From positions 1-48,303 of the IMG/VR virus record IMGVR_UViG_3300038701_002154: a stretch of 48,303 bases of DNA; one strand, written 5' to 3'. Below, in pieces: positions 4,566 through 44,534 of this stretch (within the stretch, counting starts at the first letter, position 1; every line of letters begins with the position of its first letter). The position numbers were made by a program, and so were the translations under genes. The stretch comes from a virus. Below the pieces are notes generated by a model. That model saw only the letters and a list, made by a program, of their open reading frames with translations. It made no database searches and was not told the DNA's origin.

Positions 4566-4649
4566 GTGAAGACGACGAGAATCACAACATCGCAGCTACA
4601 GCCTTATAAACACGCTAACCGAACGAACAATAAACATAAAGTAAATAAC

Positions 4650-5213
4650 ATGGAGAAACTACCCTACGTTGAATTGAACTATAACCCGGAAAAATACGTC
4701 AGAACCGAACTAGTTCTGACGGAGGAAAGCCGCGAGTATTTAGCCAGCTCACCTTTGTTGACTAAGTGTCCCTGGACTATTCACTGCCATCACGTGACTT
4801 TACACCACCACAAAGCGCATCCGCCCGTTAATAATCCGGAAGAACTCTGGCAACCTTTGACGTTCTGGATCACACCAGTAGCCTTGGTAATTACCGAGGA
4901 ACTCATAGCGATACAGGTTAAGACTCAGGCCATATGTTTCAACGAGTTCCCGCACATAACTATAGCGACGGCTCCGGGAGTACAGCCAGTGGCCGCAAAC
5001 AACGCGTTACGCGTTGCGAAGAAACACGCGTTTACTAATATAAAAAGTTTGCTGGGACAGGTTCGGTTAGTTAACATGAAGGGCTGTCCCTGTGAAAGCT
5101 CTTGCTGTCACGACCCAGATCCACAAGATTCGGCGCCGCCTTACGAGTCCTATGAAGATCAGTTTACAACCGTATGCAGGAACTGCGGAAGCTCATGTCA
5201 GTGCGATTTGTAA
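4650..5213 (+). CDS. 2H phosphoesterase-like protein with cysteine-rich tail
   Basis: 187 residues from the ATG at 4650, preferred over the upstream GTG at 4566 because it follows the leader AAAGTAAATAAC. Two H-x-T motifs, H48-V-T50 and H102-I-T104, are about 54 residues apart and each is embedded in hydrophobic strands. This is the hallmark of the 2H phosphoesterase superfamily (LigT, tRNA-ligase cyclic phosphodiesterase, T4-type Acb1 anti-CBASS). The region after the second motif (PGVQPVAANNAL) resembles the tRNA-ligase CPDase type. Such enzymes open 2',3'-cyclic phosphates or cleave cyclic oligonucleotides. A C-terminal tail with at least eight cysteines (residues about 148-186) suggests bound zinc. 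RNA repair or defence evasion are the likely roles. The superfamily is fairly sure, the substrate unknown. Confidence 0.65.
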   Translation: MEKLPYVELNYNPEKYVRTELVLTEESREYLASSPLLTKCPWTIHCHHVTLHHHKAHPPVNNPEELWQPLTFWITPVALVITEELIAIQVKTQAICFNEFPHITIATAPGVQPVAANNALRVAKKHAFTNIKSLLGQVRLVNMKGCPCESSCCHDPDPQDSAPPYESYEDQFTTVCRNCGSSCQCDL

Positions 5214-6128: not shown

Positions 6129-6647
6129 ATGACAAAAGAGGACGCAGAACCAATCATACTCGACATGTTCTATCGCCGCTCTGGCTGCAAAGTCAAAGTG
6201 GAATCCCCGCGCGAACAGGCTGCGTTCGAACTCTGGAAGGGTGAGTGTATCACGATAGACGGGAGCGAATATAAAGTGACCAACAAACCCGGTGTATGGT
6301 GTTATTTCTGGCCGGTATCACACTATTACAATGACACAGAAATGCTTCTTTGTATTGGCGGATTGTCTGACGGAGAATTTGTAAGAATTGGCCTTTTTAG
6401 CGATGAAATCGTACTACAACAAGCGCCAGCACCGCCTGCTCTAACTCCGTTAGAGTCATCACAATACGCTGAACTAGAACTAGTAAGTCATCGCTATATT
6501 AAAGTGCGCAGAGGTTTTCGATTCAATACAGCCACGCCCCCACATATACAAAAATTCCTGATGTGGGATGGTCTCTCGGAAGACGAAGCCGCCGCGCGCT
6601 ATGATCGCTACATCCAAGAACATTTAAACCGTTATCCTTTTTCATGA
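6129..6647 (+). CDS. Hypothetical protein
   Basis: 172 residues, adjacent to the winged-helix gene (start directly after its stop). The first 90 residues look like a compact beta-rich domain (alternating aromatic and charged residues), followed by a proline/alanine linker (QQAPAPPALTP) and a C-terminal helical part. No catalytic motif or membrane segment is visible. The linker suggests two separate modules. Its stop overlaps the next start (ATGA). Confidence 0.7.
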   Translation: MTKEDAEPIILDMFYRRSGCKVKVESPREQAAFELWKGECITIDGSEYKVTNKPGVWCYFWPVSHYYNDTEMLLCIGGLSDGEFVRIGLFSDEIVLQQAPAPPALTPLESSQYAELELVSHRYIKVRRGFRFNTATPPHIQKFLMWDGLSEDEAAARYDRYIQEHLNRYPFS

Positions 6648-6970
6648 AACCTACAACAAATAAAACACACCGCCCACGCCTACTAGTCCAGATCCCTCTT
6701 ACCAATAAGGTGTTCAGATCACGAACTGCTGTGTGCGGTTGTCGCGGTAGGATAGACGCTAAAAACCCTACTTGTAGTATCTGTCACGATTGGTCTAGTA
6801 AACAGGTTGAAGTGGAGAAACTGGGAGTCTGGAGCTTACTGCTGTTGGTGCTTAGTGTGCTGGCAGTGGTGGTTGGTGTATTGTTGTTCCAAGAACTGCT
6901 GTTAGTTGCCGGTATCGTTTGCAGCTTGGTAGCTGTGTTGGGGTTTTTATATGGAAGTAACTTAGACTGA
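6644..6970 (+). CDS. Membrane protein with cytosolic zinc-knuckle
   Basis: 108 residues. The N-terminal half has a CGC...CSIC cysteine set (residues about 32-48), likely a small zinc site, and the C-terminal half has two hydrophobic segments (about 62-82 and 86-104) separated by a tight turn, predicting a hairpin in the inner membrane. The start overlaps the previous stop by 4 nt. A host-envelope or exclusion function is plausible but unproven. Confidence 0.7.
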   Translation: MKPTTNKTHRPRLLVQIPLTNKVFRSRTAVCGCRGRIDAKNPTCSICHDWSSKQVEVEKLGVWSLLLLVLSVLAVVVGVLLFQELLLVAGIVCSLVAVLGFLYGSNLD

Positions 6971-6973
6971 ACT

Positions 6974-7330
6974 ATGAGCATTATTGATATAAACGAATTA
7001 CTTGAGTTTGCAGAGAGTTTAAAACCACACGAAATTGTTCATTTAGCCTCTAGTCGCCACTGACTGAGTTCCAGGTATGCCAGTAGTTTACTGGCAGAGG
7101 AAGGCGATAGCACTTGGAGCTCAAAAAAGCACGTCACAGTTTATACGGAGGAAGGTTGTGAGCAGTTTTTTGCTTTACCTGAATCATATGCAGAGTTTCA
7201 GCAAAGAGTGTTACTAAAAAATACTACAGCGGCAGATCTGATAGTCATACTAAAACACTTACGTGATGACGGTGTAAGTATAGCTGTTGATTATTACACG
7301 AAGTGCCACAACAGACCTAATAACAAATGA
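6974..7330 (+). CDS. Hypothetical gene interrupted by a single in-frame UGA (recoded or nonsense-mutated)
   Basis: From the ATG at 6974 the frame reads 29 codons, hits TGA at 7061-7063, and then continues open for 88 more codons, ending in a TGA that overlaps the start of the next gene (ATGA at 7327-7330). This translational-coupling overlap is typical of real phage genes here and argues that the whole 119-codon span is one gene. Both sides have normal composition: the N-part is helical and acidic (MSIIDINELLEFAESLKPHE), the C-part a mixed domain with two cysteines. The stop is followed by C (UGA-C, a leaky context), and a perfect 8-bp stem-loop begins 14 nt downstream (7078-7096). Readthrough, selenocysteine insertion, a nonsense mutation or a sequencing error remain open. 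No family is recognised. Confidence 0.6.
7078..7096 (+). promoter_or_regulatory. Stem-loop 14 nt downstream of the in-frame UGA
   Basis: Arms 7078-7085 and 7089-7096 pair over 8 bp around the 3-nt loop GTT. The apical G lies 22 nt after the UGA. Size, distance and a G at the first loop position are compatible with the loose bacterial SECIS model and equally with a simple readthrough-stimulating hairpin. Confidence 0.55.
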
Positions 7331-7698
7331 AAAAACTTGAACTTCTATTCATTGACGACGATGTTGAGTTCCTGACAATGCTAACGATGTTGAGTCGTGT
7401 AGCTGGTCACGAAATTACAGGATTGAGTAACGCAAAAGATGCTGAGCTTTGGCTTATGAACAACCATCCGGACGTTATAGTACTAGATCTTGTTATGCCA
7501 AACCTCGATGGGTTGGAGTTGTATAGGAGTATCGAACCAACATTAAAAAGAACAACAAGAGTGATGTTTTTAACAGCGGCTTCGGACGCTACTATAGCTG
7601 GTGTAGCTTCTGCCACCGGTTGCGAGGTTTACCAAAAACCTATATCACTTAAACTATTATTTGAGATAATTGAAAACGGACCACAAGAAACAAAATGA
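7327..7698 (+). CDS. Stand-alone response-regulator receiver (CheY-like) domain
   Basis: 123 residues covering one complete receiver domain and nothing else. All functional positions are present: acidic pocket D10-D11-D12, phospho-acceptor D54 in VIVLDLVMPNLDG, switch T83 in FLTAAS, and K104 followed by P105 (YQKPIS). It should therefore accept phosphate from a host histidine kinase. No output domain is fused. No kinase is encoded in the window, so it may act as a phosphate sink or decoy, or bind a partner when phosphorylated. It overlaps the UGA-interrupted gene by 4 nt and the zinc-finger gene by 4 nt, so all three are probably translationally coupled. Receiver domains are uncommon in phage genomes. 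Confidence 0.9.
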   Translation: MKKLELLFIDDDVEFLTMLTMLSRVAGHEITGLSNAKDAELWLMNNHPDVIVLDLVMPNLDGLELYRSIEPTLKRTTRVMFLTAASDATIAGVASATGCEVYQKPISLKLLFEIIENGPQETK

Positions 7699-16816: not shown

Positions 16817-17020
16817 ATGGCTTTATTACTTATAAAAATTACAGTCCACCTGATCTTCTTTTACTATTGTTCAAGAGCGATATATTGGTGGCGTTGTTAC
16901 CGTAAAGAGACGAACATGATGTTGGCTTACGGATACGATCAACTCTTTAATACTAACCTAAAACTAGCCCTACTATTTTTCGTTGCAATACTAGTAGGTT
17001 ACGCAACTCACATATTCTAA
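16817..17020 (+). CDS. Small two-pass membrane protein
   Basis: 67 residues with hydrophobic segments at about 2-20 and 46-64, separated by a basic, tyrosine-rich cytoplasmic loop (RAIYWWRCYRKE). The stop overlaps the ATG of the ParB-methyltransferase gene (TAATG). Unknown function; position in the replication operon suggests a membrane anchor or host-directed role. Confidence 0.65.
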   Translation: MALLLIKITVHLIFFYYCSRAIYWWRCYRKETNMMLAYGYDQLFNTNLKLALLFFVAILVGYATHIF

Positions 17021-18564
17021 TGGAACAGGAAACAATACAACAAAAAGTGCTACGGCTCTCCTCATCGGCTCACGGAGTAATCAACATTGATGAAGTCTAC
17101 GTAGATGAGTCTCGTATCAGAAAAGACGACGACAAAGTGCGTCGTTACATTGACGAAGAACTGGCACCTTCGATCGCCGAAAAGGGTGTGATTCAGCCTT
17201 CAACTATTCACAAGTGCGCGGAACCGATAACTCATAAAGGAGTCATATACGAATACGAACTGGTAGCTGGTTGGTGTCGTATGCAGGCCTGCGCCGCGTT
17301 AGGTCTCAAACAAATACCTTACAACTTACAGGAGAAACTCACTGGGGACCAGTTACTCGAGCTTGAACTCGAAGAGAACGAGATACGCCTTGATATGACA
17401 TGGCAAGATCGTTGCTTGGCGATCGAGAAAATTCACAAACGTAAAGCACGTGAGCACGGTGCTGTTGGTGAAAAGTGGGGCTATCGCGAAACTGGAAAAC
17501 TGCTCGGTGTATCTTACGGTAATGTGTCGGATACACTCAAGATCGCGGGGTACTTACGTAACGGTGATGGTGAAGTCAACGCTGCCGGCTCTATGGGCGA
17601 AGCTATGAACATCTTACTAAAACGTAAGGAACAGGCTCTCATTGACGATCTTTCCGCACGCGCTATGCCTGCGACCGCAAAGAAACGCACAGTCGGACAT
17701 GTAACCACCGCTAATCCAATCGGAGATCTCACACCGTCACCTGTATCCGCTCCTGTTCCCAGGGGTTCGGAGTCTGAAAGCGTGATAAAGAAGTCGATGG
17801 TCGAGAAGTATGAAGTGGATCTGTCGGACATGTTGTTCAACATGCCGAATGAAGAGTGGTTTGCGGGAGCGGACGCTGAGAGTGTGGATTTGGTGTATAC
17901 TGATATTCCGTATGGTATTGATATGGATAATCTGGATTTTCAACCGAACAAAGAAAAAGGCGACAAAGTTCAGGGCGATTTGGCTAGCGTTTACGATGAA
18001 CACGATGTGGACGAGAACGTGGAGCAGATGAAACCGTTTTTGGAAGGCGCTTACAAGGTGCTGAAGGACGGTAAGTATTGTGTGTTTTGGTATGATATTA
18101 AACACCAGGAGAAGCTACACAAATGGGCCTTGGAAGCAGGTTTTACCGTGCAACCGTATCCATTGATTTGGTGCAAGGAGCATCCTTGTAGAAACAGGGC
18201 CGGGAATATTTGGTGGACTAAATCCATCGAGTATGTGTTTGTTTGTCGGAAGGGTAAAGGGACACTGAGGTCGCCGCAGACACGGTGCTGGTTTTTGGCT
18301 GATGGGAGTGCTGAGAGAAAGACTCAGCAGAATCCGTTCTCTAAGCCGTTTGCTGTTAGTAAACAAATTATCGAGCCGCTGACTATTCCCGGGGATTTGG
18401 TGTTGGATTGTTACGCAGGCGAGGGTTCGCTGGTTAGGTGTGCGCTGAACATGGGGAGACGCGTGATTGCAGTGGAGAAGAAGAAAGAGCATTTTGTCAG
18501 GTTGCAGGAACATGTGAGAAAAGTGTATGTGACCATGACGAATGATAAGGTTAAGTTTTTATAA
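17020..18564 (+). CDS. ParB-like N-terminal domain fused to a DNA methyltransferase
   Basis: 514 residues. Residues 20-130 carry the ParB/Srx fold: EKGVIQPSTI (about 54-63), the box YELVAGWCRMQACAALGLKQIP (about 79-100) and ELEENEIRLDMTWQD. A HTH-like stretch follows (about 155-180), then a Ser/Pro linker (about 225-265). The C-terminal half is an amino-methyltransferase with motif IV as D295-I-P-Y298 (usually D/N-P-P-Y) and motif I as VLDCYAGEGS near residue 462. The motif order (IV before I) is that of the beta class. It would methylate adenine or cytosine amino groups on DNA, protecting the phage from restriction or marking replication. There is no partner endonuclease. Coding-strand composition switches from A/C-rich to G/T-rich near the linker. 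Confidence 0.85.
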   Translation: MEQETIQQKVLRLSSSAHGVINIDEVYVDESRIRKDDDKVRRYIDEELAPSIAEKGVIQPSTIHKCAEPITHKGVIYEYELVAGWCRMQACAALGLKQIPYNLQEKLTGDQLLELELEENEIRLDMTWQDRCLAIEKIHKRKAREHGAVGEKWGYRETGKLLGVSYGNVSDTLKIAGYLRNGDGEVNAAGSMGEAMNILLKRKEQALIDDLSARAMPATAKKRTVGHVTTANPIGDLTPSPVSAPVPRGSESESVIKKSMVEKYEVDLSDMLFNMPNEEWFAGADAESVDLVYTDIPYGIDMDNLDFQPNKEKGDKVQGDLASVYDEHDVDENVEQMKPFLEGAYKVLKDGKYCVFWYDIKHQEKLHKWALEAGFTVQPYPLIWCKEHPCRNRAGNIWWTKSIEYVFVCRKGKGTLRSPQTRCWFLADGSAERKTQQNPFSKPFAVSKQIIEPLTIPGDLVLDCYAGEGSLVRCALNMGRRVIAVEKKKEHFVRLQEHVRKVYVTMTNDKVKFL

Positions 18565-23817: not shown

Positions 23818-25041
23818 ATGTCCTTTATAAAAGACTACATCTTAGCTACCTCAGGCAATGAGGCACCAGATACTTTTCACAAATGGAGCGCGTTATCTGC
23901 GCTCTCGTCTCTATGTTCACGTCGTGTATGGGTGGACCAGGGGATTTTCATAGCATACCCTAATATGTATGTGATGCTAGTTGGTAGCGCAGGGATTAAA
24001 AAGTCTACAGCCATGTCACTAGCACGTAACCTAATACGTGAATTGAAGACGATACCAATCGCACCACCTTCAATCACCAAAGAAGCTATGACAGAGTATA
24101 TGGCAGAAGAAGATACGCCCTGCCTTAAAAACTTCAAATACCACCATAACGGTAAAGATATCTTAAAGTCCTACACTCACTTATCTATCTTCGCGAACGA
24201 GCTTGTCACGCTGATTAACTCAGGCGGCAATGCTATGGGTATGATCGAGTTCTTAACTGACATATTCGACACCGACGAGGAGTTCGAGGTGCGTACTAAA
24301 AACCGAGGCACCGACACGATAAAAGCACCCTACATCACTGTTCTTGCTTGCCTTACAACTGAGACGCTCTCTAACCTGATGAACACAAAAATCATCTCGT
24401 CGGGTTTTTCGCGAAGATGTATATTTGTTTACTCAAATGACTATGGTAATCCTGTACCTCGTCCTATTGTAACGCAAGAACAAGCAGACGCCTGGAATCG
24501 TTGCGTGCAACGTGGCAAAGACATCCAAAAACTCTCAGGTCAATTCACCTGGGAACCAGAAGCCGAAGAGTTCTGGGATGACTGGTACGTTCAATGCCAC
24601 AAACAGAAAGAAAGAGAGGACTCCGAAATACGTTCCGGGTTTCTACAAACTAAACCCAACTACGTCCTTAAAATTGCGGCACTTCTCAGGGTTTCAGACT
24701 CTGATCAACTGATAATCACTAGAGAATCCTTAGAGCTAGCACTAGCGTTTATCACAGAGATCGAACCTGATATGGATATAGTCTTCGCAGGAGCTGGTAG
24801 AAATGAGCTGTCACCTATTGCTAAGTCTATTGAAGCTATGGTGGTGTCCTCGGCCGAGCCTATTATGTTGAATCGGATACACGCCACGTTCTTCAAAGAG
24901 GCTTCTACTAGCGAGATTAACGATATATTAGAACATCTGTCGGAATCCAATAAGATTAAGTTACTTAGAGTGACTAAGGACCGCCAAGTCCTGAAGCTCG
25001 TTGCAAGACCGGACTTCGTCTTAAAAGGTGGTCAGCCATAG
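23818..25041 (+). CDS. DUF3987-type ATPase, probable replicative helicase or primase-helicase part
   Basis: 407 residues. Starts in the DUF3987 manner (DYILATSGNEAPDTFHKWSALSALSSL), then VMLVGSAGIKKST (Walker A, residues 56-64), a Walker-B-like strand in HLSIFANELVTLI (about 122-134), and ITVLACLTTETL with a conserved GFSRRCIFVY (about 198-207) resembling an arginine finger. A C-terminal helix-turn-helix-like part follows. Related phage proteins are often fused to primase domains; here no primase part is attached, so DNA unwinding is the best guess. The gene ends 68 nt inside the oppositely oriented giant virion gene. The leader is TACAGTATAACAATT, without a Shine-Dalgarno. Confidence 0.75.
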   Translation: MSFIKDYILATSGNEAPDTFHKWSALSALSSLCSRRVWVDQGIFIAYPNMYVMLVGSAGIKKSTAMSLARNLIRELKTIPIAPPSITKEAMTEYMAEEDTPCLKNFKYHHNGKDILKSYTHLSIFANELVTLINSGGNAMGMIEFLTDIFDTDEEFEVRTKNRGTDTIKAPYITVLACLTTETLSNLMNTKIISSGFSRRCIFVYSNDYGNPVPRPIVTQEQADAWNRCVQRGKDIQKLSGQFTWEPEAEEFWDDWYVQCHKQKEREDSEIRSGFLQTKPNYVLKIAALLRVSDSDQLIITRESLELALAFITEIEPDMDIVFAGAGRNELSPIAKSIEAMVVSSAEPIMLNRIHATFFKEASTSEINDILEHLSESNKIKLLRVTKDRQVLKLVARPDFVLKGGQP

Positions 25042-28000
25042 CAGCTGCTTGAGGTCTTGGTAACGAAACGTTCTTCGACATAATCTGGTCTACAATAGAA
25101 GCGCGCTGTAGTGATCTTTTTGATACACTGACAGGGATACCTAAGTTCTGCATTGTTTGTGTTCTGCTTAACAAACGATTCACCTCGCTGGTGCCGCCTG
25201 ATAAGCCTAACGAGTTTAGTAGTGCTTGACTGCCTACAGTAGAGTCAAAGGTTCCTGTACGTCTAGGGTCCCGGGGATTCTCCCGGCGCTCTATACGCTC
25301 AGCTACCTTTTTGGCTCCGTCAGAGACGGCTCTGTTGTACTCCTGTTCAGCTGCTTGTACCATTCCCTGCTCTTGAAACTTGACAACCTTTGGATCTTGT
25401 CTGGCGACTTGATCTAAGTACTGTCTAGCCAATGCTGGGTTTTCTGTATAAAGGTCAGCTATCTCATCGAAGAGATTAATGTCACGTTCTCTGATACGCT
25501 CCTGGTGTCTACGATCTAGCCGCTCGTAGGATTTGAGTTTGTTAAGTCTTTGTGGAGTAAATCCCACGCTGTAGGCAAACTTCTCAGCGAATGAACCGTC
25601 AATAAGCATACCACCATTTTGATCTCGAAACTCACCTCCGTCTTTATACATTTTGATAGGTTTGCGCCATGCGATAGGTGCGATATCTTCAAATGCCTGG
25701 GCAGCGTCACGATCTTTTAGTAGCGACGTCGCACTCTTGGTTATTGATTCGACTACAGATCCTGTAGGACCAGCGAGTGCCCCTAGCGAATAGCCGTCAT
25801 AGGCGTTAACACCTAAGACGCCTCCGATAGCAAACCTTGATCCAACGTCAGGTGCACCGGGTAGTGTTTTACCTAAAATCGCATTGGCCGCTCCGTGCAT
25901 TATAATGTCTGACATCATACCGCCGTCCTCTTTTTCGTCCTCTTCAAAGAACTCTGCGAGACCTTCACGTAATTCACGCTCTAGTTCAACACCGGTTAGT
26001 GTCTCAAACATGTGCATTGATGCCTGCATGAAAGGTAATCCTACTAGACCGGCTCCAAAGAACTGTGTGGCGACCATAGTTGTCAATGCCTTGCGCGCTT
26101 TCTTTCTGTCGGCTTCGGTTAGGTGCGGGTATTGTTTCTTAGAAAATGCGGTTTCAGCGTAGCGTCGCATCATAGATAACATTCCGAATGTGTAACCTTG
26201 TAGTGAATACAGAGCTTGTCCAGTTGTCCTGAATCCTTCTTTACCAGAAAACAAAGCGGTCGGACGGTTAGCTTTACCACCTGATAACGCAACAACACGT
26301 GTGAACTCACCAGCAGACTCGATCGCCTCTTGGTGCGACTTACCATTCTTACGAGCTATTTCGTAACCGGTAATAAGTCCAACACGAGAGTTAAACTCTG
26401 TGAATTGTTGGTAGAATCGTAGCGAGTGGTTTGCAAACAACCGAACTGGTGTTAGACCCGCTTCTAGCAGTCTACTACCCGCTTGGCCGTCGCGACCTGC
26501 TAATCCTGACGCATCAACGTTAGAGGCTAAGTCCACATCGACAATGTCCGCTGCGTGAGTTAACGAGATCCAGTTGTGTTCAGCTGCGTATTTCATCAGC
26601 TCTTGGTGCTCAGGTTTATCCCAGAGACTGTTATTATCACGTGCGCTTCGTTTAGCTATATGTTTAGCTGTAAATTTACCGACCTGTCGTTGAGCTTCCA
26701 GAATCATTTTACTGGCCTCAACAAAACCCATACCTTGGTTAATCATTTCAGGAACATAACTAAAGGCCGGTTGTCCTACCTCAATTACGTGAGATGAAAG
26801 GTTAGTTCCTAGGAAGTATGCCGCATTGTATTTAGCCAACCTAGTACCCATTTTAGTATCCGGTGTAAGAAAGTTCTCAATATGCTGCATCACATCAGGC
26901 ATATGAGCTTGCACTTTTGGGTTCTTCAATTCTTCGTTTGTAAGTTGATAACGAAGCTCGTTGTTAAGCACCTTTTTGTGCAGTGCTCTAGTGGCTGCGT
27001 TGAAGTAAGCGAACTGTGTTTGGATCATGTCCAAATCATCTCGACCCGGCTTGAACTTACGATACGCACCTTGTTTAACCATTTCTTTCGCTTTCAACTC
27101 TCTGTTGAATAACGTAGAATAATCGAGCATAGATTTCAACTCGGTAGTTAAACTCTCGTCCAATCCAAGCGTATCAATCAAAGCTCGATTCTTATCGTCG
27201 TAAGCTTTCAGCACCTGACCCATTTGATCCTCGGCAACCATATGAGGTATACCACGCCGACCCGTATCGGTCGCTATAACCTTACCACCTTCACGATCCA
27301 ATCGAGCTCTGAGGTTCTTTTCATAAACCTCCATGTCTTTCAGCTTATCAAAAGCCTGACCGCCTGTTTCTCCGTTCGCTTCCTTCCAACGAAGGAAATA
27401 CTTACCTACTCGAATCTCAGAAAAGAAGTGTGGATTTTCTGCAAAAGTCTTTAACAACTCTGTGTTGTCTTTATGTTGCTGCCTTACCAAATCGTTCAGT
27501 CGAATAAATAGATCACCATCCACTGCCTGAGCTGCCTTGGCCATCATCTCCTTACCTTGCACAACTTCTGCAGGATCAATACTACTCATCGCACGCTGTC
27601 CGCGATATATGTAATCTGCGATAGCTGGTGCCTTATCCCACAGATCAGGACGACTTGAAGCAATTACTGCCTTAAGAATAGCAATATTACCACTGTCTAC
27701 AACCTTTTCCGTCTCCGCGTACTGGAATTGCTCCATTGCATCGTGAAAACGTTTAACCGTCTCAATGACTGCTTGTCTTTCTTTAATCGGCAGCGCGTCC
27801 AGTTTGGCCCTGAGCTGACTATCAGCTTTCTTTAAGTCGGTATAAGCCAACATCTTACCAGTGCGATCCTTACCGTTATCGTCTTTCCACCTGTGTTTCT
27901 GCATTGTACGCATCCAGTCAGACGCCAGTTTATTCAACTTAGGCTTATCACGAACCATCTCGTACTTCAGTCTAGCATCCTTAGTAGCAAACACAGGAGC

Positions 28001-31000
28001 ACCGTTAGCATCGAGTTCTCCCGTAATTGCCGCTGCGATCCTTTTCATAGACGCATTCACACCACCCTGAAAATCGTGCATAGCCCTATTGATACCTCTC
28101 AGCGACGGAACCATCTGTGCACGTTGATCAAAAGTCAAAATCAATTTATCGAAGGCCTTTGCGACAAAGCTTCGATCGTCGCGTGGTGTCAATTGTTCTT
28201 CATCTCCTGTAAAGTAATCCAACACTTCTTGTCGACCACTCTCATCCCAGAGTTTTCCTAACCCCTCACCCTCAGCCTCGAAAGCGATAGCGTCCTTCTG
28301 TGCCCGCTTGAACTGCTCAGCCATCTGTGTCATCTCAGCAACACGCTTTCTTAGAGATGTTCGGACTCTGAAATTCTGCAACACGTGACCGGTGCCTTTC
28401 ATTGCGCCGTAGATAGAGCGAGCTACGTCGGACAGGGTTTGCCATGCGCGCTTGATAGGTGCAGGGAGGAGGTTGAGCGCGAACTGGTCTGGTGGGTGAG
28501 TTTGTCCCATAGCCCACATGGAGAGAAGGTTGGCGCGAACTTCACGTGCGTTGCCTGCTGTGCGTTTAGCAGCCTCGATAACCTCAGCTGTTCGCATGTG
28601 TTTAGGAATTTGTTCGAGCGCTATTTCCATTGCGATGGAGTGCTCTTCGGGCGAGGCCTCGTTTACCCAGTCGTGAAAGGCTTTGAAGTTGTCGAGCTGA
28701 CGCCGAGTCATTTGACCGTTTTGGTAAAGGTTCTCTACTAGGTGGCCGAGCTCGTGTCCTGCTACGAATGATAAGGCTTCGAGCTTTTGCTGGTCGTTAA
28801 GACCGTCAAGACCTTTGCCGCCGAGGAAGAGTTTACGGGCAGGGCTGTCTATAGAGGCAGCACCTCGAGTGTCACCTTGCAGGATTTGGAACAGGTCTAT
28901 GTCTTCAACGGAGAATATGTCGAACAGTTTCTCTATTGTAGGTGAAGCAGATCGGACAGCTTCGGGCTTCATTCCTTTTTCTAGAAGGATGCCTTCGACT
29001 AGTTCTTTTGGTGTGGCTACTCGACGCGCACGTGAGATTTTTGATTTTTGTCCTCCTTTGTAAAGTAAAGGGTGTTGAAGATCCGCCACAGTGTCGATGT
29101 GATTCATGTAACTGGACATGGTTTCGAAGTCACTAGCAGTGTGCATGTCCTGTGTGATTACAGCACGCTCAAGTGAGGATAAACCTACACCAGACTTCCA
29201 AGGTTTTTCGCGTTTTATTAGATCTATTAGTTCTTCTATAGGGACAGGTTGTCTTGTGTCTTTATAAACAATCGTTTGTGTAGCTAAGTTATAAGAGAAG
29301 TCGTTTATTTCAGGTATGTGATTATACACGTTTTCAAACTCGGCTATTGCCAATTCTCCTACATTGCCGTGAAAGTCATCTTTAATTAACGGAAACCTTA
29401 ACTGTATATTACTTTTTAAATGCTCTGTTGTACCTTTACGTAATGCGGCAGATAGCATAGTGGAAGGTTTACGTTTTTGATTAACCTCAGTGAGTCCTGG
29501 AGGGTTGTGGTCTTTCGATTTGGTGTTAGCTATGAATTCGTAAGCCGCTGCGTAAAGCTGAGTGCCTGCGGGCCTTCCGTTCATTGCATAGATTTCGAAC
29601 TCTTGCCCGTCCATCAAACTTAAAGAAATCCAACCGTGGTCTTTGCCGTGTTCGTCTATACCGCCTAGACTCGAACGAAAGATGAGTGTGTGATCATTCG
29701 GCATCTCTGCAGTTATTGTAGATTTGTCAGTGGACACAGCGGCTGCTATAACATGAGGGTCTGTGGACTCTGTAGTTCCGAATCGAAAGGCGTTGCCTTT
29801 GCTTGCGATAGCTTCCCAGGCTTTACCTATGTCAGTGAAGATTGCTTGAGTAGTCGGGTCTCTTTCTTTTTTACCTGCTTTTGTGAGGGCAAAAAGACCG
29901 TCGACACCTTTCTTTTCAAAGGCCGCGTCAGCTATACGACCGGCATCTAAAAGATCTCCGAAATTATCCTCTACCCGTTTTATTAATTCCGCGTACGCTT
30001 TTCGCTCAGCTTCTGCTCTCTGGCCTATAGAACCGTCGCCACCAACAATTTGTAAAGTGCTGGTCGCCCCCTGATATAGATCTATAGCGAACGCGTATTC
30101 TTGGAATAGAAGTTTTAACTCATACTGTCTATTTAACCCGTCAGGGTCAGAATTTAAAGCGTTTAAGGCTAGTGCACGAATTTCTCTAAAATGGGCGTCA
30201 GCTCTAGTTTGGATAAGTTGTGCGTCTTCTTCTGTAAAGTAAGCTAGGTCCTCGTCGTCTATGTCACTATACAGGTCACGTCGTAATTCCGCGTCTTCGT
30301 CAAGAATGCCATACTCTTCGTCAGTTAAACCACTACGGATGTCGTTTTGATCGTAGAAGTCTCGCTCTATCTGGTTGTGTTCGACCCAGAAGGATTCAGC
30401 AGCTTCGCGGGCTGTGTCGAGATCTTCTGGGTAAGAGCGTTCATAAGTTTCAATGGATTCATCAAGTGTGGTATCGTCAAAACCTTCACCTACTTTCGGT
30501 CGTAACTCTCCGTTTTCGTCCTGTATGTAAGTGCGACCACCAATTATGATTTCTTCTTTGGCTTTATCAGAGGGCTCTGTCTTTAGTGAACTCTCACGAC
30601 GAGGTGCCTCTTTAACATTAGCAGATATCTCTTTCAACTTCTCAGCTGTGAGCTCTCTGTTAACCTTCACAGCTTCCTGAATATCCACGTCGTCCATAGG
30701 AACAGCAACCATTTGCTCCACTGTTTCCATGATATCAGCAGTTTCGAAATCGTTACCACCACGCAACTCCGCGAGGTCAGCATCTCCAGCACCTTGTAAC
30801 TCCGCATCACCTCTCAGTGGACGCCATTTGACGACAAATTGATCTTGTCCATCTGGCGTCTTCTTGTTGTACTTCGCAGGAAAGAACTTAAAGTTCTCGT
30901 GCTTATTAGACAACAAATCGGCCTGTCTCTGTGCGGCTTGCTCTGAAGTATACTTAGCGTTTACTTCACTACCGGATTTTTCTTTGACATTCTGCAGTCC

Positions 31001-33208
31001 TTCAGTCTTAGACATTTCAAGCTGCTTCGATCGACGCACCAGTGTTTTCTCTAAGATCTTCAATTGTTCTTCATCAGTCATCTCAGCCTGAGTCTTCTTA
31101 GAAGAACGATCGTACAATTCTCCGGCAGCCTTCAAGTCATGCCACTTTTTGTACGCATTAGCAATATAAACAGGAGCCTTTTCACGGTCACCCGCAGTCG
31201 CGTATTTAGAGTACACCGCAAATGAATCCCTATCATCTTTAGAGACGCTCATCTCATTGATCCACTCAAACACAACAGGGCCATCAGGATCGTCCATCAA
31301 TCCTTTTGTTGGACGCCCACCTTTAACACCACCCTTAGCTGCCAGTTCCTTAGCATACTCCTTACTGTTAAGTTTCTTCAACGCAGCCTCTAATGCACGA
31401 AAAGCCTCACCTGGAGTCTTATAGCTAGATCGTTGTTGTTGCCAGCGTAAAAACGCCTGCTTTAAACGGTACTGCCTGGCCTTAGCTCTGCGAGGTGCTT
31501 TAGCTAATTCCTCTTCGAGCAGCTCCAGTCCTTGTTTAGTCTCAGGTTCACGACCTTCCAGCGTGTTGTCTTGGCGAAACTCATCGATCTTACTATCGGT
31601 TCTCTTTTCCTCAGCTGACCTACGATCCTTACGCTTACGCTTTTTAAAGGTCTCTACTTGCTGCTGAGTTTCATTCTTTACAGCCTGTGTTGTCTTCTCC
31701 ACAGCTTCATTAATATCGTCACCCTCTTTTAAACGACTTTCAGTCTTGCTTTGAAGTACTCCGTCATCAACAAGGTCAGTACCTAATTGTAACCTGACAA
31801 CATTGCTGTCATCTACAATCCTCTCTGTAGTCTGCGCGTCAATAGCGTCAGTCTCTAACATCCTGTCATAGTGCACCGTCGCCTTGTCATCCAGACCAGC
31901 ACTACGCATAGCGTCCAATTCTGCTTGAACTTCAATCGGAGTAACGTTACGCTCTCCCTGGGGTTCAGACTCCGAACTTCTGCGAGTGATGATTGATAAG
32001 GCGGCTTCCTGTGGAGTGACTTCGGTTTCGACTGTGTTACCTTCGTCGTCTGCGACTGTTCGTGTGATGGGGTCGTTGTATATTTCGTCTATACGAGTAG
32101 CCATCTCTTGTCCGAAGATTGAGGAGATGTTTTCTGGTGTCGTGTAGTCTTGTATCTCGTATGCGGTTTCACGAGCCTCTTCTAGTTTCTGTCTGGTTGC
32201 TTCGCGTTCTTCTGGGTCTGCGATTGTTTTGAGTTGTGCGAGTAGTGTTTGGTATTGAGATTCAATCTCTACACGGTTGGTAGCTGTGATCGTTACGCCG
32301 TCGTCGTCAGACATTAATTTGCGTGCACGCTGGACGTCGCCAGCTACATTGGAGTCGTTAGGCTTGGGTTTGGGTTTTGCTGAGGTGCGTGAGATCTCTG
32401 TTGGGACTATAGCCTCGTGGAGACCGAAGAGTACTGTTGGGTCAATGGCCTCAGCGAGATAGTTCTCGAGTGTGTATGGGTTAGTCCAGGTTCCTGTTTC
32501 TGCGTAGTCAATTCCTGCCGATGCTGTGAGCATACCTAGGTTGAGTGCGTTTTCTCCTGCAACTAATCCAACAATGCGGTCACCAAAATTGGTTGCGGTT
32601 CTGACTAGATCGTCGCCTTGCCGTTTGACTGTGCCTCCTGTGATACCAAGTGCGCGACCGAGAGCAGTTTTGCCTATAGTGTTACGTGTGACTGAATGAG
32701 CTAAGCGGCCACCGAATCGTGTGACGGGTCCGCCGATGTATGGTATGGAACCGGCAAGGGCTGCGTGACCGAGGGAGTCGGTTTTCTCAAATGCGTTGGC
32801 TGCACCCATTGCACCTGAGATAGCATTACCAGCAACGACAGAAGCACCGCTTGTTGGTAGTGCTAGGGCGTAACCGGCGATTGCGGGGAGGAAGTCCACA
32901 ACACCTCGAAGGGACTCCTCCCCGGCTTGTCGCCCGGTTGCTGCATCAGCACCGAAAAAGTCAAACACGTTTTCGCCAAAATCTCCAAACGCATTCTGCA
33001 CAGGTGCGGCGTGGTTATCGAGGAAACGATCCACACCAGCGGAATAAGATTTGACGCCTATCTCAAACGGATTGCCTATACCTTGCGAGGCAAAGTCTGA
33101 GTTTGTGACTCGGTTTAAAGAACCAGAGAAGTCGTTTATAGGAAGTTGTTGTAAGCCTAAACGATTTCTGACGTTTTGGATTTGGGCGAAAGTTAATCCG
33201 GCGCTCAT
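24974..33208 (-). CDS. Giant internal virion protein with HExxH metallopeptidase site
   Basis: 2744 residues, about 17% of the genome, starting after the leader CAATTCTAACAAACACAC. Residues about 50-250 are Ala/Gly-rich and hydrophobic, possibly membrane-interacting. About 280-1100 are highly charged and coiled-coil-like. H1485-E-L-G-H1489 in SFVAGHELGHLVENL is a zincin active site, a phage-virion peptidase pattern. About 2240-2560 resemble the C-terminal large-polyvalent-protein region (LPD38-like) found in giant phage proteins: helical, with RLFANHSLRFYQQFTEF and hydrophobic GAGLVGLPFM. The tail is basic. Such proteins are packed in the head and ejected with DNA. No convincing RNA polymerase or lysozyme motif was seen. 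It is the last gene of the late operon. Confidence 0.85.
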   Translation of the reverse strand: MSAGLTFAQIQNVRNRLGLQQLPINDFSGSLNRVTNSDFASQGIGNPFEIGVKSYSAGVDRFLDNHAAPVQNAFGDFGENVFDFFGADAATGRQAGEESLRGVVDFLPAIAGYALALPTSGASVVAGNAISGAMGAANAFEKTDSLGHAALAGSIPYIGGPVTRFGGRLAHSVTRNTIGKTALGRALGITGGTVKRQGDDLVRTATNFGDRIVGLVAGENALNLGMLTASAGIDYAETGTWTNPYTLENYLAEAIDPTVLFGLHEAIVPTEISRTSAKPKPKPNDSNVAGDVQRARKLMSDDDGVTITATNRVEIESQYQTLLAQLKTIADPEEREATRQKLEEARETAYEIQDYTTPENISSIFGQEMATRIDEIYNDPITRTVADDEGNTVETEVTPQEAALSIITRRSSESEPQGERNVTPIEVQAELDAMRSAGLDDKATVHYDRMLETDAIDAQTTERIVDDSNVVRLQLGTDLVDDGVLQSKTESRLKEGDDINEAVEKTTQAVKNETQQQVETFKKRKRKDRRSAEEKRTDSKIDEFRQDNTLEGREPETKQGLELLEEELAKAPRRAKARQYRLKQAFLRWQQQRSSYKTPGEAFRALEAALKKLNSKEYAKELAAKGGVKGGRPTKGLMDDPDGPVVFEWINEMSVSKDDRDSFAVYSKYATAGDREKAPVYIANAYKKWHDLKAAGELYDRSSKKTQAEMTDEEQLKILEKTLVRRSKQLEMSKTEGLQNVKEKSGSEVNAKYTSEQAAQRQADLLSNKHENFKFFPAKYNKKTPDGQDQFVVKWRPLRGDAELQGAGDADLAELRGGNDFETADIMETVEQMVAVPMDDVDIQEAVKVNRELTAEKLKEISANVKEAPRRESSLKTEPSDKAKEEIIIGGRTYIQDENGELRPKVGEGFDDTTLDESIETYERSYPEDLDTAREAAESFWVEHNQIERDFYDQNDIRSGLTDEEYGILDEDAELRRDLYSDIDDEDLAYFTEEDAQLIQTRADAHFREIRALALNALNSDPDGLNRQYELKLLFQEYAFAIDLYQGATSTLQIVGGDGSIGQRAEAERKAYAELIKRVEDNFGDLLDAGRIADAAFEKKGVDGLFALTKAGKKERDPTTQAIFTDIGKAWEAIASKGNAFRFGTTESTDPHVIAAAVSTDKSTITAEMPNDHTLIFRSSLGGIDEHGKDHGWISLSLMDGQEFEIYAMNGRPAGTQLYAAAYEFIANTKSKDHNPPGLTEVNQKRKPSTMLSAALRKGTTEHLKSNIQLRFPLIKDDFHGNVGELAIAEFENVYNHIPEINDFSYNLATQTIVYKDTRQPVPIEELIDLIKREKPWKSGVGLSSLERAVITQDMHTASDFETMSSYMNHIDTVADLQHPLLYKGGQKSKISRARRVATPKELVEGILLEKGMKPEAVRSASPTIEKLFDIFSVEDIDLFQILQGDTRGAASIDSPARKLFLGGKGLDGLNDQQKLEALSFVAGHELGHLVENLYQNGQMTRRQLDNFKAFHDWVNEASPEEHSIAMEIALEQIPKHMRTAEVIEAAKRTAGNAREVRANLLSMWAMGQTHPPDQFALNLLPAPIKRAWQTLSDVARSIYGAMKGTGHVLQNFRVRTSLRKRVAEMTQMAEQFKRAQKDAIAFEAEGEGLGKLWDESGRQEVLDYFTGDEEQLTPRDDRSFVAKAFDKLILTFDQRAQMVPSLRGINRAMHDFQGGVNASMKRIAAAITGELDANGAPVFATKDARLKYEMVRDKPKLNKLASDWMRTMQKHRWKDDNGKDRTGKMLAYTDLKKADSQLRAKLDALPIKERQAVIETVKRFHDAMEQFQYAETEKVVDSGNIAILKAVIASSRPDLWDKAPAIADYIYRGQRAMSSIDPAEVVQGKEMMAKAAQAVDGDLFIRLNDLVRQQHKDNTELLKTFAENPHFFSEIRVGKYFLRWKEANGETGGQAFDKLKDMEVYEKNLRARLDREGGKVIATDTGRRGIPHMVAEDQMGQVLKAYDDKNRALIDTLGLDESLTTELKSMLDYSTLFNRELKAKEMVKQGAYRKFKPGRDDLDMIQTQFAYFNAATRALHKKVLNNELRYQLTNEELKNPKVQAHMPDVMQHIENFLTPDTKMGTRLAKYNAAYFLGTNLSSHVIEVGQPAFSYVPEMINQGMGFVEASKMILEAQRQVGKFTAKHIAKRSARDNNSLWDKPEHQELMKYAAEHNWISLTHAADIVDVDLASNVDASGLAGRDGQAGSRLLEAGLTPVRLFANHSLRFYQQFTEFNSRVGLITGYEIARKNGKSHQEAIESAGEFTRVVALSGGKANRPTALFSGKEGFRTTGQALYSLQGYTFGMLSMMRRYAETAFSKKQYPHLTEADRKKARKALTTMVATQFFGAGLVGLPFMQASMHMFETLTGVELERELREGLAEFFEEDEKEDGGMMSDIIMHGAANAILGKTLPGAPDVGSRFAIGGVLGVNAYDGYSLGALAGPTGSVVESITKSATSLLKDRDAAQAFEDIAPIAWRKPIKMYKDGGEFRDQNGGMLIDGSFAEKFAYSVGFTPQRLNKLKSYERLDRRHQERIRERDINLFDEIADLYTENPALARQYLDQVARQDPKVVKFQEQGMVQAAEQEYNRAVSDGAKKVAERIERRENPRDPRRTGTFDSTVGSQALLNSLGLSGGTSEVNRLLSRTQTMQNLGIPVSVSKRSLQRASIVDQIMSKNVSLPRPQAAAMADHLLRRSPVLQRASGLGGP

Positions 33209-37083: not shown

Positions 37084-38549
37084 AGGTTGTATTTCCAGCG
37101 CGATGAATCTTCGAGGATTAGAGCCTCGTGAGGTGGGTCGTTATCGGTGAAGGGTTCACCACGCATTAGTTTAATGTAGTTAGTTGCTGTTGGGTAAGAT
37201 GCAGGGAAATTGAATGTGACTTCAGTTATGGCGTAAGCTGGTGGTGGATTGCCGGTTACTACGTTGATGTAGGCCTCGTTGAAGACGTCTGTTGTTATGG
37301 TTAGTGCGTCGGTTATGACTCGTTCACGGATTGAACGTCCGGGGATGTCCACTTCTATAGTTACGGGTTTGAATTGGAAGACTTCGGCTGCAGTTGGTGC
37401 TGAGGTGTGATAGGTTATCTCAAAGCGGCAGGGTATTTTGAATCGGTGTGGAGAGGATTTGACTGCGTTGATGAGTTCTTTACCACCGCCGAGTGAGTGG
37501 ATTACAAAGGGAGTGTCAGGGTCAAGGTATGAGGGGAAGTCGTATTCGACTGAGTGGTATTCGTAGAAAGTTTCAGTGAGTATGGAGGGGTCTATTTCAC
37601 GGATGACCTTAGTCCATCGGTCACAGCCAGTGTGACGAACGCTTACGACTCGTCGTGCCGCGCCGTTGACAGCGACGGTCGGTTCTGTACCGTGAATGGT
37701 GCGAGTTACTTCTACGCGCTTACCTGTTACAGGCTCTTCCTCGTACGATACCAGCTGCGGCCAACCGTTTGGCAAAATTGTTTTTGTATAGATTTTTTTG
37801 TGACCGTCGATTTGTTGTAGACTTTCCGCTACAGTGTCGATTGACTTGGCGGGAAGCTCGAAGTCTAGTGGTACTTTCCTTGTTTCTGTTACTGTTTTGC
37901 ATGATTCTACACCAAAATTGTCTTCGGTTGTAAGTGTTCCGTGTCCGCCGTCAGCATAGGTGTAAGTGTCGAGATATTTGTCTTGTCCTATTTGTTCACG
38001 TTTGAAAGCTTCTATGTTCGAGCCAGTGGGAATCGGATCGTCGTGGCGGACTACTTGGCGACGTATGAATAGATCATTGCCACCACCTTCTGGTGAGTTG
38101 ACTATGCGATCAACACGAGGATTCCAAGATTCAACGGTGCGAATTTCTCGGTCTGCGTGATTCCTATCTGTTTGAACTATTTTATCAGAGATTCTGAGAA
38201 AGTCGTGCGTTGGAGTGGTAGTGGTTGCATCTACAAGTGAGGTAGTAGTAGTGACGTCATCAGCTCCAAGTTCTTCTAGGCCTTTGGCTTCTGTGGTGGC
38301 CAGCTCTTGGAGGTCGTAAACGTCTACGAAAGTGTCTTCTCGGCGAGACTTGTTTGCGTTACGCTCGTTGTAGACTCGAGATTGCAGGAGTCCAAATCGT
38401 GGACGGAGTGGCTCAGCCCCGTGCTCGACGAGTTGATCTATAACAGTGTGTGTGTTTCCACGTGTCTCTGCGTTCGGTCCTATTTCGGAGACCAGGGCCT
38501 TGCCTCTGGTGGCGTCCTGAGGAGAATAGTTACGGATCTGTCGTTTCAT
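37011..38549 (-). CDS. Probable tail or virion structural protein
   Basis: 512 residues, mainly beta-strand by pattern (alternating Thr/Val/Tyr), Thr- and Val-rich, with no signal peptide or enzymatic motif. Its size and its place between the head-tail adaptor/phosphatase and the glycan enzymes suggest a tail-tube, nozzle or spike component. This gene's coding strand is notably G/A-rich on the plus strand, differing from the flanking genes. No family is recognised with confidence. Confidence 0.65.
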   Translation of the reverse strand: MKRQIRNYSPQDATRGKALVSEIGPNAETRGNTHTVIDQLVEHGAEPLRPRFGLLQSRVYNERNANKSRREDTFVDVYDLQELATTEAKGLEELGADDVTTTTSLVDATTTTPTHDFLRISDKIVQTDRNHADREIRTVESWNPRVDRIVNSPEGGGNDLFIRRQVVRHDDPIPTGSNIEAFKREQIGQDKYLDTYTYADGGHGTLTTEDNFGVESCKTVTETRKVPLDFELPAKSIDTVAESLQQIDGHKKIYTKTILPNGWPQLVSYEEEPVTGKRVEVTRTIHGTEPTVAVNGAARRVVSVRHTGCDRWTKVIREIDPSILTETFYEYHSVEYDFPSYLDPDTPFVIHSLGGGKELINAVKSSPHRFKIPCRFEITYHTSAPTAAEVFQFKPVTIEVDIPGRSIRERVITDALTITTDVFNEAYINVVTGNPPPAYAITEVTFNFPASYPTATNYIKLMRGEPFTDNDPPHEALILEDSSRWKYNLWRRVRVYMKFPDLTQALDDSLIY

Positions 38550-39004
38550 AACCTTTCTATGATATTAAGTTCGCGCCAGTTAATAGCAGTCACTGACTCG
38601 CGATCGTATTGTTTGCGTGCTGAGTTTACCATACAGATAGCTTCGAGCAGAGAACAACCAAAATTATGGTGAAGGTGTGCAATTAAGAGCGTGGGCGCAC
38701 GGTGTGTTCCTGCTGTGCAATGCACGTGTACTGTGTTACCATCCATAAGTGCTAACGCTTCGTGAAACATTTTCTTAGGCGGTGGTTGTTTTCCTTCAGC
38801 CCAACCTATAAATAGACCTCTGCCTGCTGTTATTACAGAACCATGTGAAGGCACAACAGCTCGCTTTTTGTATTCGCTACAATTTAAGTGAGAGCCTTGT
38901 GAAATATGCACACGTAGTGGTTCTGCTGCTACGTCAGGTAACGGTTGACCGCAGGATTCATACCCACCAAGGTAGGCGTATCTATTTACTTTAGCTAGTC
39001 TCAT
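38546..39004 (-). CDS. Dual-specificity/tyrosine protein phosphatase-like protein
   Basis: 152 residues. The catalytic loop H95-C96-TAGTH-R102 (HC-x5-R) is followed by APTLLIAHLHHNFGCSLLEAICMV, the helix pattern of dual-specificity phosphatases. The N-terminal half offers strands typical of the fold (NRYAYLGGYES, RVHISQGS). The cysteine would form the phospho-enzyme intermediate. Candidate substrates are phosphoproteins, phosphorylated sugars or RNA caps. It lies in the late structural operon, coupled to both neighbours by 4-nt overlaps, so it is made with virion proteins and could be packaged. Phosphatases of this type are rare in phages. Confidence 0.8.
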   Translation of the reverse strand: MRLAKVNRYAYLGGYESCGQPLPDVAAEPLRVHISQGSHLNCSEYKKRAVVPSHGSVITAGRGLFIGWAEGKQPPPKKMFHEALALMDGNTVHVHCTAGTHRAPTLLIAHLHHNFGCSLLEAICMVNSARKQYDRESVTAINWRELNIIERL

Positions 39005-39753
39005 TTTGGTTGCCGTCCTGATTCGATAGTGAAGTTATTGTATTCTGCAAAGGCGGCGAGAGCTTCGTCTCGAGCTTTGACTGGAGGTGGTAAGTTACCT
39101 TCCTGTTGTGGGATAAATGTCTGGAAATGGTTGTTGAGTTCTACTACGGCATACCATTGAAGGTAATTAGGACAGTTTTCAGTGAAGAAATCTGTATCGT
39201 CGTCACAAGTATAGTCAGCCTGCCAGAGGTAAGCGTCACAGTAGATTTGATAAGTAGAACTTTCAGGGACTGCCGGACGAATTTCAAAGGAATCACCTAA
39301 CAAGAAGATTTCGTAATTGTTTATGTAGTTGGTGTGATATGGTGTAACTATAGGATCGGCGTCGGATAAGTAACGTGACTGACCGATGATAGATTCACCA
39401 GCACGTATGTGTTCTTTGTCTTTTACTGCTCCGTGTTTTTTGGTGTGGTGATATACAGGTGTGAGTATGCCGGAGTTGTCGAACTCTATATAAAATGTTT
39501 GAGGTTGTTTCACAGAGACTGTAGCTCCGTTGTCGTTGCGTTGTGCTGTGCGCCAGTTGGTGTCGTTGAAGCGGACTAAAAACTCTTCGTAGTTCCAATC
39601 AATAGTCTGCTGAGCAAACCGCTTAGCGTTGTTAATTGATGGAAGAAATAGGTCTACAGTTTCGGCAGTGTCTTCATCGAGAACGTGATGAAGATCAGCC
39701 AAAGGAACTTGGTGATATGCTGCAACCTGTCTGCGTATGTCTCCAACTGTCAT
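39001..39753 (-). CDS. Probable head-tail adaptor / tail-completion protein
   Basis: 250 residues. The start MTVGDIRRQVAAYHQV...LFLPSINNAKRFAQQTIDWNYEEF resembles helical starts of podoviral adaptor (gp11/gp4-like) proteins, which bind under the portal; a beta-rich part follows and the last 60 residues are helical (YLQWYAVVELNNHFQ ... ARDEALAAFAEYNNF), again adaptor-like. The position after the fibre gene fits. The family link is from pattern and position only. Confidence 0.55.
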   Translation of the reverse strand: MTVGDIRRQVAAYHQVPLADLHHVLDEDTAETVDLFLPSINNAKRFAQQTIDWNYEEFLVRFNDTNWRTAQRNDNGATVSVKQPQTFYIEFDNSGILTPVYHHTKKHGAVKDKEHIRAGESIIGQSRYLSDADPIVTPYHTNYINNYEIFLLGDSFEIRPAVPESSTYQIYCDAYLWQADYTCDDDTDFFTENCPNYLQWYAVVELNNHFQTFIPQQEGNLPPPVKARDEALAAFAEYNNFTIESGRQPK

Positions 39754-40601
39754 GGTGTCTGTATTACGATTGTGCCGATGGTGTGTGGCGATGCTGTGGT
39801 TTTGACTTCCAAGTTGACTAAGTCTGCGTATAAAGTCGTGGAGTTAGTTCCAGCGACTGCGTCTGCAGCTGTATCGTAGAAAGTATTGTTACGCAGGTTT
39901 AGTGCTGTAAAGTAAGTGCCGTCGTCTTTTTCGTAGATTCGATGTCCTTCATCAGTTAAACCTGAGTCAGAGTATGAACCAGCGACAGACGCTGTGCCAG
40001 AGGTTATGATGTATAAAGTAGGAGGTGCGTTAGGTGATGAACCGATTGAGGTCCAGGAGGTCTCTCCTGCGTCTTTTGTAAACCACTCACCTGTTGAAAT
40101 GTTATGGTGTATGGAGTCATAAGCACGTTCGGCTAAGTCTGTAGGGTCGTCCTCCTCAGATAGAGTGGTTACTGTTCCGGATGTGCCATCACTTCCTGCG
40201 TCTCCAGTGTCACCTTTAGGTCCCTGTATTCCCTGGTCGCCCTGGTCGCCTTGAATTCCTTGGTCGCCTTGAATTCCCTGATCACCCTTCGGGCCTCGAG
40301 GTCCTTCGGCTCCTAAGATAGGGCCAAGGTTGTGCCAGGCGCCGTTAGAATAAACGAGGATATCACCGATCTCAGGTGGATCTGTAGAACCTGTACTTAG
40401 ATTTAGCTTACCTGGTAAAGCTCCACCTGTAACAGTTGAGATCTGGTAACCATAACCTGTTGGTGTGGTACCTACAAGCGCCTCCCAGGTCGAGATACCT
40501 GCGTACGTATAAATTAAAGCGGACTCACCTCGGTCACCCTGAGGACCTGTAGGACCTGAGGGAAAGTTGACGGTGATCTGCCATGGACATTCACAACTCA
40601 T
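39750..40601 (-). CDS. Collagen-like tail fibre or spike protein
   Basis: 283 residues. Short collagen-like piece at the start (GPTGPQGDRGE, about 16-26) and a long uninterrupted Gly-x-y run in the middle (about 97-140, GPRGPKGDQGIQGDQGIQGDQ and onward) that would form a trimeric triple helix. The flanking parts are beta-rich and Thr/Ser-rich, as in trimeric fibres. The C-terminal third is a likely receptor-binding knob. The repeats may expand or contract by slippage. Likely host recognition or a head fibre. It overlaps both neighbours by 4 nt. Confidence 0.75.
   Translation of the reverse strand: MSCECPWQITVNFPSGPTGPQGDRGESALIYTYAGISTWEALVGTTPTGYGYQISTVTGGALPGKLNLSTGSTDPPEIGDILVYSNGAWHNLGPILGAEGPRGPKGDQGIQGDQGIQGDQGDQGIQGPKGDTGDAGSDGTSGTVTTLSEEDDPTDLAERAYDSIHHNISTGEWFTKDAGETSWTSIGSSPNAPPTLYIITSGTASVAGSYSDSGLTDEGHRIYEKDDGTYFTALNLRNNTFYDTAADAVAGTNSTTLYADLVNLEVKTTASPHTIGTIVIQTP
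40205..40320 (-). repeat. Collagen-type Gly-x-y coding repeat
   Basis: Direct short repeats in DNA encode GDQGIQ units in the fibre gene, several of them nearly identical at base level (CCTTGATCACC-like and GATTCCTTGGTCGCC units on the plus strand). This invites copy-number variation between strains. Confidence 0.75.
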
Positions 40602-40993
40602 ATTTCTCCGTGTTCGTTTCCGATTTTTAGTTTGCCTTGTAAGCGAAAGTCGACGTTGTCAGTGATTACGTCTATCTTTGCGTTAAGATAAGGGGCTGGT
40701 TCAAAGTCTGATGCCGTCGCTGCTATAGCTAATGCGACCGCTTCTGCAAAGGTGTTACCAATGCTGTCTAGTGAATCGAGTGCTGGTGGGATGTTTATTA
40801 CAACTTGCGTAGAACTAACTATAGTTATATCGCTCGTCTCTCCGGACCGGTAGCGCCATACCACCGATCCGTTGAGTTCGAGCTCTAGTAGAACCAACGC
40901 AGTAACAAAGTCGTAGGCTGGGGGACCGGTTAACTCTATACAGAGATTGGCCCCGGGACCATACTTAGGAAATACTATGCTTTGCGGTGTCAT
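40598..40993 (-). CDS. Small beta-rich structural protein
   Basis: 131 residues. Beta-strand pattern through most of the length (VFPKYGPGANLCIELTGPP, VVINIPPA), suggesting a capsid- or tail-associated beta-sandwich. It is in the block after the capsid gene and coupled to the fibre gene by 4 nt, so a decoration or fibre-attachment role is possible. No family is recognised. Confidence 0.65.
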   Translation of the reverse strand: MTPQSIVFPKYGPGANLCIELTGPPAYDFVTALVLLELELNGSVVWRYRSGETSDITIVSSTQVVINIPPALDSLDSIGNTFAEAVALAIAATASDFEPAPYLNAKIDVITDNVDFRLQGKLKIGNEHGEI

Positions 40994-44242: not shown

Positions 44243-44534
44243 TTTCTTTTGCTTTAATTAGTTCTTCAACTTCCTCCAATAAATTCTCGTAATAGGCGTT
44301 CATCAACTGAACTTGTCGTAGTTGCCCGAATGCCTGTTCACGTAAAAAGAATGAGGAAATTGTTTCTATCTGCATGTCACAGATTACAGAAAGGAATAGG
44401 TCGCGGGAGGTCTCGGTCTCTTTTTTGTATTGTTCGTATAAGGCAGTTTCTTTAAATTGTAGGAGGTCCGACCGGAGCTGTTTGAGTTTCGCTAGTGGGA
44501 GTTCCGTTGGGTCCGAGGATAGTTCCGATTGCAT
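44232..44534 (-). CDS. Small helical protein overlapping the portal gene
   Basis: 100 residues, helical and Glu/Lys/Leu-rich throughout with coiled-coil potential. It overlaps the portal gene by 83 nt at its start and the scaffold start by 11 nt. The ATG follows CAACACCTCAAA. It may be a capsid-assembly chaperone or a portal-associated protein. No family is recognised. Confidence 0.6.
   Translation of the reverse strand: MQSELSSDPTELPLAKLKQLRSDLLQFKETALYEQYKKETETSRDLFLSVICDMQIETISSFFLREQAFGQLRQVQLMNAYYENLLEEVEELIKAKENES

Follow-up and report, generated by a model that had tools for sequence, protein, structure and literature searches.

A UGA-interrupted early gene with a strong downstream hairpin in an uncultivated tailed-type phage: nonsense codon or recoding signal?

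An in-frame UGA at positions 7061–7063 of an uncultivated phage genome splits an early gene, and a strong RNA hairpin begins directly behind it. Does the UGA break the gene, or is it recoded under the direction of the hairpin? The codon belongs to a single IMG/VR virus record of 48,303 bases, which was analysed over its full length and is referred to here as the window. On the minus strand, the right half of the window encodes head and tail proteins together with the large subunit of the terminase. The left half is mostly transcribed from the plus strand and contains replication genes, among them a DNA polymerase gene and a gene at 17020–18564 (+) that encodes a DNA methyltransferase fused to a ParB-like domain.

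A single reading frame flanking the UGA

The split frame spans 6974–7330 on the plus strand. It is sequentially composed of an N-terminal part of 29 codons (6974–7060), which opens with an ATG 3 nt past the stop of gene 6644–6970, the UGA followed by C (7061–7063), and a C part of 88 codons in the same frame (7064–7330), whose terminal TGA overlaps the ATG at 7327. The read-through product is 118 codons long. Rechecking of the sequence reproduced the frame layout, its coordinates, the ATGA overlap at 7327–7330, and the UGA-C context, all of which had been put forward in an earlier note on this DNA.

The C part contains no in-frame stop, compared with 7, 9, 8, 4, and 4 in the remaining five frames. 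Its codon score is the best of the six frames, and it is clearly coding in its own frame. The 29-codon part also scores best in its own frame, but weakly. The neighboring genes are packed alike, with ATGA junctions at 6129/6644 and 7327/7695, and 6974–7330 is therefore filled exactly by a single gene. The exact fit to the neighbors and the coding character on both sides of the UGA indicate that the two parts were once one gene.

UGA is the stop codon of 14 of the 43 solid genes in the window. The code is thus the standard one and is not changed as a whole, as the earlier note had also stated, and an alternative genetic code in which UGA specifies an amino acid is rejected. A frameshift at the UGA cannot yield the long product, since a stop follows immediately in each of the other two frames. 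Re-initiation was likewise rejected as a source of the C part; the starts available are limited to CTG at 7064 and 7091 and GTG at 7208, none with a Shine–Dalgarno motif. An out-of-frame ATG at 7077 opens a frame that is non-coding by score (−0.17 per codon).

The gene directly downstream (7327–7698, +), joined through the ATGA overlap, encodes a stand-alone receiver domain (PF00072, E = 2.3e-16). It lacks an output domain and lies in a phage early operon. An AlphaFold model of the read-through protein, built from the single sequence, is poor (pLDDT 55) and least confident at residues 24–51, and no fold match was found for it.

A two-stem hairpin adjoining the UGA

An 8-bp stem with a GTT loop at 7078–7096 had been reported, and it is present as claimed. 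It forms the top of a larger element; the hairpin is larger and stronger than that description. The predicted fold is a two-stem RNA hairpin at 7065–7124 (+). Its lower stem starts 1–2 nt past the UGA and pairs GAGUUCCAGGU with ACUUGGAGCUC over 11–12 bp in the folding. The upper stem of 8 bp (7078–7096, +) is capped by a GUU loop located 22 nt past the UGA.

The 67 nt past the UGA fold with a minimum free energy (MFE) of −29.0 kcal/mol. This value is in the lowest 0.27% of early-region positions at a length that was picked after seeing the fold, and at 40, 50, and 80 nt the site is in the lowest 1.0, 3.0, and 0.8%, respectively. Of the 1789 TGA triplets in the window, counting both strands, 0.45% have an equally low MFE. 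The observed MFE is reached by none of 2000 dinucleotide shuffles (z −5.3) and by none of 1500 controls under a synonymous-codon null (z −4.6). The structure exceeds what codon choice explains. In the 48 kb, only eight places have a perfect Watson–Crick stem of at least 8 bp that closes a 3–8-nt loop. Among 51 one-stop-split frames without an early far-side start, most of which are probably not genes, collected from 1.35 Mb of the window and related records, this frame has the strongest hairpin. About 0.1–0.5% of comparable places in the window carry such a hairpin.

Comparable structure strength is also present inside genes without any stop, around 44701–44772, 40891, and 10551. The first of these is on the minus strand inside gene 44452–46326 and has a z of −6.7 and an MFE of −30.6. 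The second, near 40891 in 40598–40993 (−), has a z of −5.7 and an MFE of −33.7, with no stop codon involved; among 1129 in-frame segments taken from window genes, it alone is as extreme under the synonymous null, and it is more structured than the site at the UGA.

The hairpin is followed by an A-run and not a T-run, which argues against a terminator, and the element is single-copy, which argues against an operator or a repeated palindrome. It matched no known RNA family. Elsewhere, the left end of the window contains five perfect 9–12-bp hairpins within a 1.2-kb span (1255–1283, 1314–1338, 1710–1740, 2097–2124, and 2373–2400), which are possibly terminators or processing sites.

The codons under the hairpin score poorly. 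The segment 7064–7126 is non-coding by score (−0.18 per codon, at about the 1st–5th percentile of gene segments), whereas both flanks are not. Such a score, and the low confidence of the model at residues 24–51, would suit a quasi-palindromic insertion or another arrangement, in which a small in-frame hairpin insert brought the stop, or the 29-codon frame is a separate leader and the C part a remnant. However, neither the window nor 120 related loci showed a second copy of the element, there is no clear target-site duplication, and RNA constraint would equally produce a poor codon score. Such an origin is improbable.

A related question is whether the hairpin functions as a bacterial SECIS element, at which SelB of the host would insert selenocysteine at UGA 7061. 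A published bSECIS model comprises a loop of 3–9 nt with a G within the first two positions, a stem of 4–16 bp, a UGA-to-loop distance of 16–37 nt, and an MFE of at most −7.5; the loop is mostly N1-G-[G/U]-N-N2, with N1 and N2 paired (PMC13188914). The upper stem-loop falls within all of these constraints, with 8 bp, a GUU loop, and 22-nt spacing. The first 40 nt past the UGA have an MFE of −13.9 kcal/mol, and the loop plus its closing A-U pair represents the commonest pattern. As in fdhF-type elements, the UGA is followed by a stem-loop with an apical-loop G at 22 nt. The site differs from them in its 3-nt loop, which is the lower limit, in its location in a phage gene, and in showing no cysteine homolog, no redox motif, and no sign of selenocysteine machinery. 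In our own implementation of the model, 2.3% of the TGA triplets in the window also pass, so SECIS membership does not follow.

Genomic surroundings and the search for relatives

The terminase has relatives in IMG/VR with identity of up to 64%, and the polymerase is also carried by many IMG/VR records with a related terminase. In the fetched related loci, no counterpart was found for the block of ~4.5–9.4 kb that holds 6974–7330. For 4566–5213 (+), Pfam gave a weak match to a domain of the 2H-phosphodiesterase type (PF08302, E = 5.3e-6); a possible function of the product is that of a phosphoesterase acting on cyclic nucleotides or RNA ends. The structural genes on the minus strand have features of their own. 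They include a single 2744-codon open reading frame at 24974–33208, which overlaps the end of a plus-strand gene by 68 bases, and a small protein at 38546–39004 whose motif HCTAGTHR, read from the sequence, resembles the signature of Cys-based phosphatases. Collagen-like GPxGDQGIQGDQG repeats are present in another minus-strand protein, at 39750–40601.

No homolog of the read-through protein was found in IMG/VR, either by protein scans, which also covered the C-terminal half and the neighbors, or by a DNA-pattern scan with the UGA codon left free. GTDB genome contigs, the fetched related loci, Pfam, PHROGs, and PDB yielded no relative, and tblastn of the read-through protein against phages, plasmids, and 50 terminase-related records returned nothing. 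NCBIfam gave one chance-level match (E = 0.007, 15 bits, where the cut-off is 500). The contig scans require near-exact octapeptides and possibly missed distant relatives, and records very near the window were possibly left out of the searched collections. Because no homolog was found in these collections, no conservation is shown for the UGA or the hairpin.

In 23 conserved window proteins aligned to related loci, no internal stop occurs in ~115,000 distinct codons, with four stop matches sitting at alignment ends. This makes an assembly or sequencing error at 7061–7063 an unlikely origin of the UGA. In favor of an error, the sequence comes from just one uncultivated IMG/VR record; against it, no other interrupted gene was recognized in the window, and we consider an error very improbable.

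Shine–Dalgarno motifs are found at 5 of 41 gene starts in the window, below the 16% background, and the leaders are A-rich (for example, AACAAACAACAAAAAT). Such start sites resemble those of Bacteroidota (PMC3155529). The start-site features suggest a Bacteroidota-like host. Selenocysteine decoding is uncommon in Bacteroidota.

Nonsense codon or recoded UGA

We tentatively read 6974–7330 as an accessory gene interrupted by a nonsense codon, which is slightly favored over programmed recoding of the UGA. The locus would be one accessory early phage gene of 118 codons, broken here by the UGA. Most ribosomes would terminate at the UGA with 29 codons translated, and the protein would be lost or produced at leak level only; we infer both the mutation and the loss of product. 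The hairpin would be either fortuitous or used in another role, such as in mRNA stability or in spacing translation on its way into the receiver gene. Several observations fit a nonsense codon. Both parts share one coding frame that matches the gene boundaries around it exactly, and UGA is an ordinary stop in this genome. The gene looks dispensable because its block has no counterpart in related records and no relative was found in the searched collections. About 2% of random TGAs satisfy the SECIS model, similarly strong structures lie inside stop-free genes, and hairpin-driven UGA recoding in tailed phages is not reported in the literature searched. Like nonsense-interrupted accessory genes of phages, it is an orphan in a lineage-specific early block, with one in-frame stop and the rest intact; unlike them, it has an exceptionally strong hairpin 1–2 nt past the stop. 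That hairpin, which ranks in the top 0.1–0.5% of the window right at the UGA, must be called a coincidence under the nonsense reading. Also against this reading, the 88 codons past the stop show no further damage, and the conserved genes of related records are free of internal nonsense codons, although such codons may be commoner in accessory than in conserved genes.

Hairpin-directed recoding, by readthrough or by selenocysteine insertion, would give two products of an early gene located before the receiver gene in a tailed-type dsDNA phage. It is a real possibility, ranked below the nonsense reading. The earlier note had proposed either a short and a long product or selenocysteine, with a nonsense mutation as the null. 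The anatomy of the gene supports recoding beyond what the earlier note could know, through the bSECIS geometry, the structure, and the coding on both sides. The low odds of finding such a hairpin at any one point strongly favor recoding, with the reservation that this case had been chosen because of its hairpin. UGA recoding in a tailed phage has a low prior probability; the literature searched contained no report of it. Of the two forms, programmed readthrough is the less doubtful, and is itself rather unlikely. The weak UGA-C stop and a hairpin at the mRNA entrance of the ribosome would cause some ribosomes to insert a standard amino acid, yielding products of 29 and 118 residues and supplying the receiver gene with ribosomes. 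Readthrough is consistent with a structure directly past the UGA that far exceeds both shuffled and synonymous controls, with coding sequence flanking one stop in a single frame, and with the weak codon score under the hairpin, which fits an RNA constraint. The immediate stops in both other frames leave frameshifting no long product. The C part has no usable start codon of its own near its beginning, where the hairpin would hinder SD-less initiation. Alphavirus-type readthrough with a 3′ stem-loop and UGA readthrough in phage Q-beta share the UGA-C, the stable 3′ stem-loop, and the in-frame extension. The present case differs from both in being a dsDNA phage, in having no conservation shown, and in its short upstream product. 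No homolog and hence no conservation, no tailed-phage precedent in the literature searched, and a 29-residue product without evident use all count against readthrough. Selenocysteine insertion is improbable. No cysteine lies within 30 residues of the UGA, and there is no redox motif such as CxxU or UxxC; the lack of a nearby cysteine and the SD-less leaders, which suggest a Bacteroidota-like host, lower this reading. In addition, no cysteine homolog, or homolog of any kind, was found in the searched collections, no tRNA gene was found in the window, and a review on prokaryotic selenoproteins mentions no phage (PMC13188914). These probabilities were set by judgement and not by calculation. Recoding and nonsense are close, with a plain disabling mutation at least as likely.

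If the UGA is a plain nonsense codon, the locus shows how easily a hairpin mimics a SECIS element, with ~2% of random TGAs passing a published model. If the UGA is recoded, the gene would be a rare example, among tailed-type DNA phages, of a stop codon recoded by an RNA structure, and would suggest that UGA-split frames in viral metagenomes are sometimes wrongly annotated as broken genes.
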